64,000 bases of DNA, from NCBI RefSeq assembly GCF_001713355.1, contig NZ_CP016448.1, positions 1,302,001 through 1,366,000 of the forward strand, read 5' to 3'. The position numbers and the translations under genes were made by a program. Numbering within the stretch: the first letter of the stretch is position 1; each line of letters begins with the position of its first letter. Of the stretch, positions 6,156-52,657 are shown piece after piece. The stretch comes from Methyloversatilis sp. RAC08. Lineage in GTDB: Bacteria; Pseudomonadota; Gammaproteobacteria; Burkholderiales; Rhodocyclaceae. Below the pieces are notes generated by a model. It made no database searches and was not told the DNA's origin. It worked only from the letters and a program-made list of their open reading frames with translations.

Positions 6156-6952
6156 TGATCACCGGACCCACGGATCCGGTCGGCGTCGAGGACGACATTC
6201 CGCCGGTCGACTGGCACGGCGTGCCGCTCGACTGCACGGTCTGCGGTACGCGCAGCGAACTCATCCGATGCGAACGCGGCCACGCCTGCGTGCAGGACCG
6301 CTACGCCAAGCGCATCGACCGCTTCTTCCGCTGGAATCCGCAGGTCAGCAACGACTACCTGACACACCCGTATTTCGAAGTACGCGCCATCGCCTGCCGG
6401 CAGGCCGATGTATTCCGCCTGCAGCCGCTGATCGACGACGAGGACGAGACCGTGCGCCTGTCGGTGGCCGTGCGCCTGCCGCTGGCGCAGGCGGTGCGTC
6501 TGCGCAGCGACCCGCACCGCGAAGTGCGCATCCGCGTGGCGATGCGCCTGGAAGGGCGCGAACTGCTGGCGATGGCCAACGACGACGACTACTACGTGCG
6601 CAAGCTGGTGGCGCGCCGGCTGCCCGAAGCACTGGTGCCGCGCATGCTCGACGACCGCGAGTGGGAGGTGCGCCTCGAAGCCGTGAAGCGGGTCGGAATG
6701 CCGGCACTGCTGCGCATGTGCGACGACCGCGAAATCGCCGTCCGCCGCGAGGTGGTGGCGCGGCTGCCGGTGGCGCAGCTGTACCGCATGGCACACGACC
6801 CGGCGTGGGAAGTGCGCTGGGAAGTGGCGCAGCGCGCCGGGCGCGAACTTGCGCGCCTGATGGCGCACGGCGACGAGGAAGCGGAGGTGCGCGACGAAGC
6901 GCTCGCGCGCCTGAGAACACTGGATCAGCAGACGGGAGAACAGCATGAGTGA
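6155..6952 (+). CDS. LRV-repeat protein with N-terminal [4Fe-4S] motif
   Basis: The N-terminal part holds CTVCGTRSELIRCERGHAC, a C-x2-C-x8-C-x5-C array that matches the iron-sulfur domain of the leucine-rich-variant (LRV) protein known from the Azotobacter vinelandii nif region. It is followed by at least six 24-residue helical repeats (DDREWEVRLEAVKRVG, DDREIAVRREVVARL, DPAWEVRWEVAQRAG and others) rich in Arg and acidic residues. Length is 265 residues. Its ATG overlaps the stop of the TPR gene by one base and its end overlaps nifZ by 8 bases, implying coupled translation. The family has a solved fold but, as far as I know, no assigned function. Confidence 0.88.
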   Translation: MITGPTDPVGVEDDIPPVDWHGVPLDCTVCGTRSELIRCERGHACVQDRYAKRIDRFFRWNPQVSNDYLTHPYFEVRAIACRQADVFRLQPLIDDEDETVRLSVAVRLPLAQAVRLRSDPHREVRIRVAMRLEGRELLAMANDDDYYVRKLVARRLPEALVPRMLDDREWEVRLEAVKRVGMPALLRMCDDREIAVRREVVARLPVAQLYRMAHDPAWEVRWEVAQRAGRELARLMAHGDEEAEVRDEALARLRTLDQQTGEQHE

Positions 6953-50204: not shown

Positions 50205-51149
50205 TCACACCGGCTGCGCGGACGTGACCTGTGCGTTGACCAGCCCGCCGCCCTTTGCCAGCAGGAAGTCGCGCAGTGCCTGGGCGGCCGGCAGCAGGTT
50301 CTTGCGGTCGCGATAGACCACATGCCAATTACGGATCACCGGCGTACCCGGTGCAGCGATCCGGCGCAGCACGCCGGTACGCAGTTCGAGCTGGCAGGTG
50401 TGTTCCGACAGGAACGCCAGCCCCATTCCCGCAATTGCCGCCTGCTTGATGATCTCATTGCTGGGCAACTCGATGATTTCGGTCGGGCGAATGCCGTGTT
50501 CGATCAAAAAGCTTTCCTGGGTCACCCGCGTGCCGGATCCGCGCTCGCGGATCAGGAAGGCTTCGCGCCCCAGATCCTCCGCGCTGGCCATGCCGCCGCC
50601 GGTCAGCGGGTGACCTTCGCAGGCGAGGATGGAAAGCGGATGCTCGGCGAACACATGCGCCTCGCAACCCAGCGCAGCCGGCGGACGCCCCATGATCGCG
50701 AGGTCGATCAGGTTGTCTTCCAGCTGGCGGAAGATGTCGTCGCGGTTGTGCAGTGAAATGCGGACCTGCACATCCGGAAAGCGCTCGCGGAACGCCATCA
50801 GCAGCTTCGGCGCGATGTACTTCGCGGTGCTGACCACGCCGACCGACACCAGACCGGCATGACCGCTCGCCATCTGGGCGAGCGCTGCTTCCGCTTCGGC
50901 CAGCTGGTGTTCGATCGCACGCGCGTGGCGGGCGATTTCCATGCCGACATCGGTCACTCGCAGCTTCTTGCCCAGGGTTTCGATCAGCGGCAGCCCGATC
51001 AGCCCGTCGAGCGCCTTCACCTGCATCGAGACTGCGGGTTGTGTCAGATGCAGTTCTTCGGCGGCGCGCGAAATCGATCCGAGGCGGGCGACCGCTTCGA
51101 ATATCCGCAGCTGGCGTAGCGACACTCCTCGTGTCCACTGGGTCGTCAT
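50205..51149 (-). CDS. cbbR: LysR-type regulator, CbbR-like
   Basis: The 314-residue LysR protein begins TRGVSLRQLRIFEAVARLGSISRAAEELHLTQPAVSMQVKALD (HTH), followed by a two-lobed effector domain with VGVVSTAKYIAPKLLMAFRERFPDV and IGMGLAFLS-like segments of the CbbR group. It is divergent to fbp-prkB, where CbbR genes lie and act in autotrophs, so it probably controls the carbon block in response to metabolites. Confidence 0.85.
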   Translation of the reverse strand: MTTQWTRGVSLRQLRIFEAVARLGSISRAAEELHLTQPAVSMQVKALDGLIGLPLIETLGKKLRVTDVGMEIARHARAIEHQLAEAEAALAQMASGHAGLVSVGVVSTAKYIAPKLLMAFRERFPDVQVRISLHNRDDIFRQLEDNLIDLAIMGRPPAALGCEAHVFAEHPLSILACEGHPLTGGGMASAEDLGREAFLIRERGSGTRVTQESFLIEHGIRPTEIIELPSNEIIKQAAIAGMGLAFLSEHTCQLELRTGVLRRIAAPGTPVIRNWHVVYRDRKNLLPAAQALRDFLLAKGGGLVNAQVTSAQPV

Positions 51150-51197
51150 ATCAGTCGGTATCAGGAAATTTAATTGATCGTATCAAAACAACTTATT

Positions 51198-51225
51198 TTG
51201 AACCAAGACGGATTCCAGATATATT
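51198..51225 (+). promoter_or_regulatory. Sigma-70 promoter of the candidate small RNA
   Basis: TTGAAC (51198-51203) and TATATT (51220-51225) stand 16 bases apart in an AT-rich stretch, pointing right. The expected start is near 51232. Confidence 0.6.
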
Positions 51226-51231
51226 GCACTG

Positions 51232-51404
51232 CAACAGCGGTAGAAAACAAAGCCCGGAAGCAACAAAGGCAGTTTTCGAGAGCTCACGATTTTAGCGTCA
51301 AAGCCTGTCTGCTCAACAAGAATTGACAGGTGACCCAGGCTCCTCCTCCACAACCTTGTTTGTGGATTCATACCCCGGCTCGCAAGAGTCCGGGGTATTT
51401 TTTT
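51232..51404 (+). ncRNA. Candidate small RNA with anti-Shine-Dalgarno motif
   Basis: Between cbbR and fbp there is no open reading frame of note, yet a sigma-70 promoter and a strong terminator bound about 173 bases. Stems seen are CCTGTC/GACAGG (51304-51309 with 51325-51330), CCACAA/TTGTGG (51348-51353 with 51360-51365) and the terminator. Just before the second stem is TCCTCCTCC (51341-51349), complementary to ribosome sites, a mark of several regulatory small RNAs. I do not recognise it as 6S, tmRNA or another known family. A leader role for the carbon operon is less likely because a separate promoter lies downstream. Confidence 0.55.
51370..51404 (+). terminator. Intrinsic terminator upstream of the cbb operon
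   Basis: ATACCCCGG (51370-51378) and CCGGGGTAT (51390-51398) form a 9-bp stem, with a further CTC/GAG inside, directly followed by a run of seven T (51398-51404). No gene lies upstream in this direction, so it must end a non-coding transcript. Confidence 0.9.
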
Positions 51405-51481
51405 GCGTTTGCACACTGTGTTGCTTGCAGTGGAACACACCGTTCCATGGTTGCAGCACATCATTTGCTGTCACGATGACC

Positions 51482-51532
51482 TGTCGGAGCGCGACAAGCC
51501 GATGTGACAGCGCGGCGGGCGACAGCTAGGAT
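51482..51532 (+). promoter_or_regulatory. Probable cbb operon promoter with LysR-type box
   Basis: GTGACA (51504-51509) and TAGGAT (51527-51532) stand 17 bases apart before fbp. Immediately upstream TGTCGGAGCGCGACA (51482-51496) is a perfect 5-bp inverted repeat with T and A ends, as in LysR sites, and is a good place for CbbR. AAGGAGG precedes the fbp ATG. Confidence 0.5.
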
Positions 51533-51562: not shown

Positions 51563-52657
51563 ATGATCGAAGGGCGCAAGACCCTCACGCGTTACACCAT
51601 CGAGGCCCAGCAGAGACACCCGCAAGCGAGCGGGATCTTTTCGAGTCTGTTGAATGCGGTTGCGACGGCGGTGAAAATCATCGCCAACAACGTTAACAAG
51701 GGCGCGCTGGTCGGCTCGCTCGGCAGCTTCGAAGCGATTGGCAGCGGCGCCGCCATCAATCTGGCAGGCGACGTCACGCAGAAGCTCGACACCATCGCCA
51801 ACGAGGCGATGCAGCGCGAATGCGAATGGGGCGGTCATCTTGCGGCGCTCGCACCGGATGGCCTCGACGGCTTCATCCCGACGCCGGAACAGTCGCCGCG
51901 CGGCAAATACCTTTTGCTGTTCGATGCGCTGGACTGCAGCAACAACATCGACGTGAATCTGACTGTCGGCACGCTTTTTTCGGTGCTGCACGCACCCAAC
52001 CCGGGTGCCGAGCCGCAGTTGTCGGATTTTCTGCAGCCCGGAACCGAACAGGTGTGCGCCGGCTATGCGCTGTACGGCCCTTCGACCATGCTGGTGCTGA
52101 CCACCGGCGAAGGCGTTGACGGATTCACGCTCGACCGCGACATTGGCGCCTTCATCCTGACCCATCCGAAGATGCGCATTCCGGCGCAGACGAACGAATT
52201 CGCGATCAATGCGTCGAAATCGCGTTTCTGGGAACCGCCGGTCAAGCGCTATGTCGAGGAATGTCTGGCCGGCCAGACCGGACCGCGCAACACGGACTTC
52301 AACATGCGCTGGATCGCCTCGCTGGTGGCTGAAACCCATCGCGTGCTGACGCGCGGCGGCGTCATCATGTATCCGGCCGACACCATGCCGTCGCAGCCGC
52401 CAGGCCGCATTTCGCTGATGTACGAAGCCAATCCGATCGCCTTTCTGATCGAACAGGCGGGTGGCGAGGCGACCAACGGCCGCACCCGCATCCTTGAACT
52501 GCCGCCGCGCAGTCTGCAGATGCGCACGCCACTGATCTTCGGTTCGAGCGAAGAAGTGCGTCGCATTGCCCAGTATCACCACGAAAATGACCAGGGACTG
52601 GACCGTGAATACACTTCGCCACTTTTCAATATCCGTGGCCTGTTTTCCACGCTCTGA
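51563..52657 (+). CDS. fbp: Fructose-1,6-bisphosphatase class I
   Basis: The 364-residue enzyme of the Calvin cycle and gluconeogenesis. YLLLFDALDCSNNIDVNLTVGTLFSV is the class I metal site (D-x-L-D-x-S form), and IMYPADTMPSQPPGRISLMYEANPIAFLIEQAGGEATNG ends the substrate site. AAGGAGG precedes the ATG. It is first of the carbon operon, 11 bp before prkB. Confidence 0.95.
   Translation: MIEGRKTLTRYTIEAQQRHPQASGIFSSLLNAVATAVKIIANNVNKGALVGSLGSFEAIGSGAAINLAGDVTQKLDTIANEAMQRECEWGGHLAALAPDGLDGFIPTPEQSPRGKYLLLFDALDCSNNIDVNLTVGTLFSVLHAPNPGAEPQLSDFLQPGTEQVCAGYALYGPSTMLVLTTGEGVDGFTLDRDIGAFILTHPKMRIPAQTNEFAINASKSRFWEPPVKRYVEECLAGQTGPRNTDFNMRWIASLVAETHRVLTRGGVIMYPADTMPSQPPGRISLMYEANPIAFLIEQAGGEATNGRTRILELPPRSLQMRTPLIFGSSEEVRRIAQYHHENDQGLDREYTSPLFNIRGLFSTL

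Follow-up and report, generated by a model that had tools for sequence, protein, structure and literature searches.

A conserved, predicted double-hairpin small RNA between cbbR and fbp in Methyloversatilis, with elements of the same layout at cbb operons of other genera

Introduction

The intergenic region between a cbbR-like gene and fbp in the methanol-using bacterium Methyloversatilis sp. RAC08 raises the question of whether a small RNA is encoded beside a regulator of carbon fixation and, if so, what such an RNA would do. Work on CbbR has dealt with it as a DNA-binding activator of carbon-fixation operons, and the literature that we searched describes no RNA arm of the CbbR circuit. Small RNA genes do lie beside other LysR-type activators, OxyS with OxyR and GcvB with GcvA, and genes activated by LysR-type transcriptional regulators (LTTRs) usually combine a poor -35 hexamer with a LysR-type site ahead of the promoter. 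AbcR1 under VtlR is another precedent for the pairing of a LysR-type regulator and a small RNA (PMC7486931). We analysed a 64,000-nucleotide stretch of the RAC08 genome (the window), for which a sequence-only reading had proposed an unannotated small RNA with an anti-Shine-Dalgarno (anti-SD) stretch, and compared the locus with those of related genomes.

Results

The proposed small RNA lies on the forward strand and is divergent from a LysR-type regulator gene at 50205-51149 on the reverse strand. The product of this gene has the Pfam domains HTH_1 and LysR_substrate, and its best NCBIfam model is CbbR, at 302 bits, below the model cut-off of 450. Downstream, on the forward strand, fbp (class I fructose-1,6-bisphosphatase; 51563-52657) is the first gene of an fbp-prk-tkt-gap-pgk-pyk-fba operon. 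A promoter scan and a 12-genome alignment give fbp a separate promoter, GTGACA-17-TAGGAT, at 51504-51532 on the forward strand, with 11 of the 12 hexamer columns invariant across the 12 Methyloversatilis genomes and only 39% identity in the sequence ahead of it. Partly conserved inverted repeats (GGAACACACCGTTCC plus GTTGC/GCAGCA blocks) occupy positions 51406-51460, between the terminator of the small RNA and the fbp promoter, and are perhaps an operator of fbp itself. RuBisCO is encoded at another site in the genome, together with second copies of cbbR and of fbp/prk; in two relatives' loci a TATCA-N8-TTAT-like site was seen in the spacer that separates this second cbbR from the RuBisCO operon (L163, near position 6160; L164, near 11739).

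The sigma-70-type promoter claimed for the small RNA, TTGAAC-16-TATATT, is present at 51198-51225 on the forward strand, with a predicted start near 51232. Its -10 hexamer is invariant (12/12 relatives); the -35 hexamer is weak and varies among the relatives (TTGAAC, TTGAGC, TTCAAC, TTTAAC or TTAACC). Promoter-like sites in the surrounding 2 kb number three, against 0.4 expected. Upstream of the -35 hexamer, at 51170-51186, lies an LTTR-type dyad, TTAATTGATCGTATCAA (TTGAT-N7-ATCAA in relatives), so that the locus has the layout of a small RNA gene whose promoter diverges from an LTTR gene. The right arm and the spacing of the dyad are kept in all 12 Methyloversatilis relatives. Since the dyad centre was set from the right arm, the left arm is the actual test: it is TTGAT or CTGAT in seven relatives, TTAAT in four and degenerate in one, and in the window itself it is TTAAT, which is imperfect in this species. 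The centre of the dyad lies 42 bp before the -10 hexamer, and the same distance separates the two in 29 of 29 measured loci of other genera, where the box is TTAT-N7-ATAA. The longer box of those genera, used as a position weight matrix, gave no match at the window promoter; the agreement is confined to the core dyad and its spacing. We suggest that CbbR binds the dyad at 51170-51186. The locus would then resemble OxyR-OxyS, GcvA-GcvB and VtlR-AbcR1 (PMC7486931), in each of which a small RNA gene adjoins an activating LysR-type regulator; the RNAs OxyS, GcvB and AbcR1 are unrelated to the Methyloversatilis RNA, and control by CbbR is here presumed from the arrangement.

A palindrome, TTGCACTGCAACA, at 51224-51236 overlaps both the -10 hexamer and the predicted start site and resembles the operator of PhaR, a regulator that is encoded in this genome. 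The form TTGCNNNGCAA is found at the start site of the small RNA in 12 of 12 Methyloversatilis relatives. The pattern TTGCANNGCAACA has 10 matches in the genome against one for the reversed control pattern, and one copy immediately precedes the SD of a phasin-like gene (its Phasin_2 match, at 22.3 bits, is a little below the cut-off). Across the genus, TGCACTGCA lies just upstream of the SD in eight of eight phasin promoters, that is, in all genomes having the gene. The PhaR motif of R. eutropha is YTKNTGCRNYGCANMAR (PMC12849132), from which the window palindrome differs by two mismatches. Only the strict form counts, because the published loose motif occurs in the window near the control rate (17 versus 10 control matches). 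Exact copies of TTGCACTGCAACA elsewhere in the genome (L167, L168, L171-L173) lie in the phasin promoter, in front of a ptsN-like gene and at two other places; the gene behind the L172 site, recognised by eye downstream of an hpf-like gene, is presumably ptsN. These exact sites are a candidate PhaR regulon, and PhaR control of the small RNA is a lead, with PhaR binding suggested by the operator-like sequence.

The predicted transcript of about 173 nt is untranslated and ends in an intrinsic terminator. After a variable 5' segment (51245-51292; 46% mean pairwise identity, 2 of 48 positions invariant) come four elements, all on the forward strand. A 5' hairpin at 51297-51334 (GTCA..CCTGTC / GACAGG..TGAC) has 10 pairs in RNAalifold, one with a compensatory change and none broken. 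It is followed by an unpaired CU-rich stretch, CCAGGCTCCTCC (51335-51346), which overlaps the anti-SD run CTCCTCCTCC at 51340-51349. Hairpin 1 (TCCACAA-loop-TTGTGGA) occupies 51347-51366, and the terminator, at 51370-51404, has 12 pairs, of which two show compensatory changes. The terminator had been described as a 9-bp stem with seven T; these are present (the T run is 51398-51404), with three further pairs beyond a bulge. A generic terminator scan of the window did not list it, and it is visible by folding and in the Rfam alignment. Folding and RNAalifold likewise place the anti-SD stretch where it had been described, unpaired and directly 5' of hairpin 1. Fold z-scores were -3.6 for 174 nt, -5.1 for 112 nt and -5.8 for 67 nt, and none of 200 shuffles was as good. 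We found no ATG-started frame inside the transcript and no short open reading frame common to the 12 relatives; a short-ORF or dual-function reading was thus rejected, in agreement with the earlier statement that the unit holds no protein gene. The description of a discrete unit running from promoter through about 173 non-coding nucleotides to terminator is borne out by the folds and by conservation. Missing from it were the 5' hairpin, the LTTR-type dyad and the palindrome over the start site.

Conservation of the stems and promoter in close relatives had been named as a test that the proposed RNA could fail. Of 13 Methyloversatilis genomes, 12 have the small RNA, always at one position between cbbR and fbp; the thirteenth is 91% complete and is without this cbb cluster. 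Among the 12, identity is 100% in the -10 hexamer, 46% in the 5' segment, 87% in the 5' hairpin and 98% in the 67-nt 3' module, a profile that is gene-shaped. RNAalifold over the relatives gives three pairs with compensatory changes and none broken. In two of the genomes (G007 and G011) the large subunit of RuBisCO was not detected and the cbbR-RNA-fbp-prk cluster is kept; hence the RNA tracks the cluster and not RuBisCO. Phosphoribulokinase may have another role in these two, or RuBisCO may have been lost recently.

No known RNA family had been recognised in the segment. At Rfam gathering thresholds nothing is found in the window; below them, the double-hairpin module at 51340-51404 (forward strand) matches RF02278 (Betaproteobacteria toxic sRNA) with 36.3 bits and an E value of 2.1e-5, against a gathering score of 50. 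It is thus a relative of a known family, and the E value of 1.9e-5 across the whole genome indicates significant homology in sequence and structure. Genome-wide it is the second-best match, behind a canonical copy at 66.7 bits and ahead of a third at 22.1 bits. This divergent copy scores 34 to 38 bits in 12 genomes, and in 12 of 13 it is second-best behind the canonical copy, which is present once in each of the 13 Methyloversatilis genomes, upstream of an rplM-like gene (judged from the gene start). The canonical RNA (L001, G000:1550423-1550486) has a promoter-like sequence of its own upstream and a variable 5' part. Common to both copies are CTCCTCC, closure of a hairpin by TCCAC..GTGGATT, and a terminator. 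Burkholderiales metagenome-assembled genomes also have the same CTCCTCCTCCAC..GTGGATTC form, in two cases with a score that exceeds the Rfam cut-off.

As in RF02278 and the Burkholderia double-hairpin RNAs (ncS03, ncS05, ncS27 and ncS62), the window RNA has two hairpins, the second a U-run terminator, and an unpaired CU-rich 5' part with CUCCUCC directly 5' of hairpin 1. It also shares with RF02278 RNAs the closure of hairpin 1 by UCCAC..GUGGAUU, the short linker that follows, its small size, and its intergenic position in Betaproteobacteria. Expression as a short RNA and toxicity of the clone in E. coli are further traits of the RF02278 family. The hairpin-1 loop has no second CU-rich site: it reads CCUUGU here and CUCCUCC in the canonical paralogue. 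Further differences are a single, longer anti-SD run instead of two, the 5' hairpin, the fixed place between cbbR and fbp, and a promoter with PhaR-like and LTTR-type sites. Because the CU-rich loop is lacking and the score is below the cut-off, we do not file the RNA as a member of RF02278; on sequence and structure it appears to be a divergent branch of the RF02278 kind. The alphaproteobacterial ar14/cuckoo RNA (RF02344) and anti-hemB (RF02837) likewise have a CU-rich anti-SD motif by a hairpin and terminator. Both were rejected as families for the window RNA (RF02837: 20.5 bits, E 0.038, gathering score 49.5; RF02344: 18.4 bits, E 0.59, gathering score 58.8).

Two sub-threshold anti-hemB matches in other genera, lying immediately 5' of fbp, were the starting point for a DNA search, which recovered the region from many genomes of the family. 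All 30 loci fetched lie directly upstream of fbp or prk, or beside cbbR, and share the box TTAT-N7-ATAAGAAAAAGTGANTGGCGCTTA. The cbb operons (fbp or prk) of 26 genomes carry a double-hairpin RNA of their own; these genomes belong to seven genera (g8, g19, g29, g38, g46, g65 and g66). Within the element (L184-L213, L125 and L128), the box is followed at a fixed distance by a CU-rich and nearly invariant TTCTCCACTCCCTCTGGC, then by a hairpin and a terminator rich in G+C. The sequence UUCUCCACUCCCUCUGGC is nearly invariant across the 26 genomes. Covariation is modest, at 2 of 14 pairs; in L128, CTCCGGC/GCCGGAG replaces CTCTGGC/GCCAGA. No Rfam family was found for these elements at gathering scores. 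A covariance model of the element (R2) has a single match in the window among E values up to 10, which falls at 51336-51403 (17.5 bits, E 0.012), and a model of the Methyloversatilis RNA (R1) matches the elements of the other genera with E values of 0.0016 to 0.08. These cross-scores are weak, and gain weight because both elements occupy the same place. An initial inspection of 24 fbp loci from other genera gave no strong match, and R1, run over 200 genomes of the family and 399 of the order, found outside the genus only generic double-hairpin RNAs at about 40 bits or lower. Putative RNAs of the same layout occupy the same place in at least seven other genera, which is new here. In those genera the element may be an RNA family or an operon leader, and may act either in trans or as a cis attenuator.

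Target prediction for the anti-SD stretch, which had been recommended, was run on 16 named genes. Pairing was best with fbp2 (-16.4 kcal/mol), fbp (-16.3) and a cbbQ-like AAA gene (-14.9). Good pairing was thus found, but it tracks SD strength, and the predicted targets among the 16 genes are indistinguishable from what generic SD strength would give. Control of carbon or nitrogen genes had been suggested; no finding points to nitrogen genes.

Discussion

Anatomy, structure, family relation and genomic place are conserved for the Methyloversatilis RNA, and the geometry of its promoter is shared with other genera. We consider it probable, at roughly 60%, that the RNA is a CbbR-controlled, trans-acting double-hairpin small RNA that blocks the ribosome-binding sites of carbon genes. 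Its own promoter, divergent from cbbR, would transcribe it under CbbR-like LysR control, as in OxyR/OxyS and GcvA/GcvB, and the primary transcript of about 173 nt would stop at the strong terminator and probably be shortened by processing to about 65 nt. With the cbb/fbp pathway on, the unpaired CUCCUCCUCC would pair with purine-rich Shine-Dalgarno sequences and so lower the translation of a set of genes for carbon metabolism or transport. Polyhydroxybutyrate state may be a further input in Methyloversatilis, through the PhaR-like operator that covers the start site. Expression, processing, binding by CbbR and PhaR, the targets and the direction of regulation are what we infer.

Studies of related RNAs offer a guide. 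In Burkholderia, four double-hairpin RNAs of 57 to 92 nt are expressed, one of which can also yield a shorter, processed form. The CU-rich parts of these RNAs have been predicted to mask ribosome-binding sites, namely those of amino-acid and carbohydrate genes, and overexpression of ncS27 slows growth (PMC4603805, PMC5688073, PMC10987360). In Bordetella pertussis, S17 is a long transcript from a sigma-70-type promoter with a CU-rich double-hairpin module at its 3' end; S17L (~190 nt) gives rise to S17S (~67 nt), which binds Hfq and directly represses a target (PMC11722255). The corresponding lengths in the window are 173 nt and, for the predicted short form, 65 nt, and by this analogy the module at 51340-51404 is possibly a processed short form. 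S17 differs in lying between a glycosyltransferase gene and coq7 and in being higher in the Bvg+ mode (PMC11722255). Two observations make a role of the small RNA in carbon metabolism plausible: in other genera the element accompanies cbb operons, and published relatives, which are Hfq-linked, target ribosome-binding sites of carbon and transport genes (PMC5688073, PMC10987360, PMC11722255).

The main rival to a trans-acting RNA is an attenuated leader of the cbb operon, in which a CbbR-type promoter drives the fbp operon, the double hairpin and terminator tune readthrough in cis, and the short RNA is a by-product. The geometry in the other genera favours such a leader: the element is always upstream of a cbb operon, between the CbbR-type box and promoter and fbp or prk, and its terminator lies only tens of bases, often 40 to 80 nt, ahead of the start codon. 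However, in Methyloversatilis fbp has its own downstream promoter, conserved in 12 genomes; the terminator is stable, and no conserved competing antiterminator was seen; conservation falls on the unpaired CU-rich stretch, something not required of an attenuator; and the relatives in the family are stand-alone small RNAs. We therefore regard a leader as rather unlikely. It is also conceivable that both occur at once: terminated transcripts of the cbb leader would act in trans as a small RNA, and the fraction that reads through would supply the operon. This would fit the geometry in the other genera, but it meets the same separate fbp promoter in Methyloversatilis, and we think it improbable. 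A decayed or silent RF02278 copy, kept only as a terminator or spacer, would account for the score below the Rfam cut-off and the loss of the anti-SD site in the loop; it is very improbable given a module at 98% identity next to a 5' segment at 46%, an invariant -10 hexamer and compensatory changes. Promoter-like sites by themselves are weak evidence, yet a coincidence of promoter and hairpin in an unremarkable intergenic stretch is hardly credible in the face of the conservation, the RF02278 match, the fold z-scores and the 42-bp dyad spacing.

Beyond the small RNA of Methyloversatilis, we hold as a tentative possibility a Calvin-cycle RNA across the family, in which the CbbR promoter of fbp/prk operons would make a double-hairpin anti-SD RNA that silences competing carbon-use genes through its nearly invariant seed when cbb is on, with additional PhaR/polyhydroxybutyrate wiring in Methyloversatilis. 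The proposal that CbbR controls a small RNA is directly testable, as species of Methyloversatilis can be cultured. If it is true, a conserved anti-SD RNA beside cbbR or from the cbb promoter, in eight genera, would provide a post-transcriptional output for CO2 fixation, and the so far orphan 'toxic' double-hairpin RNAs would gain a link to a defined metabolic regulator.
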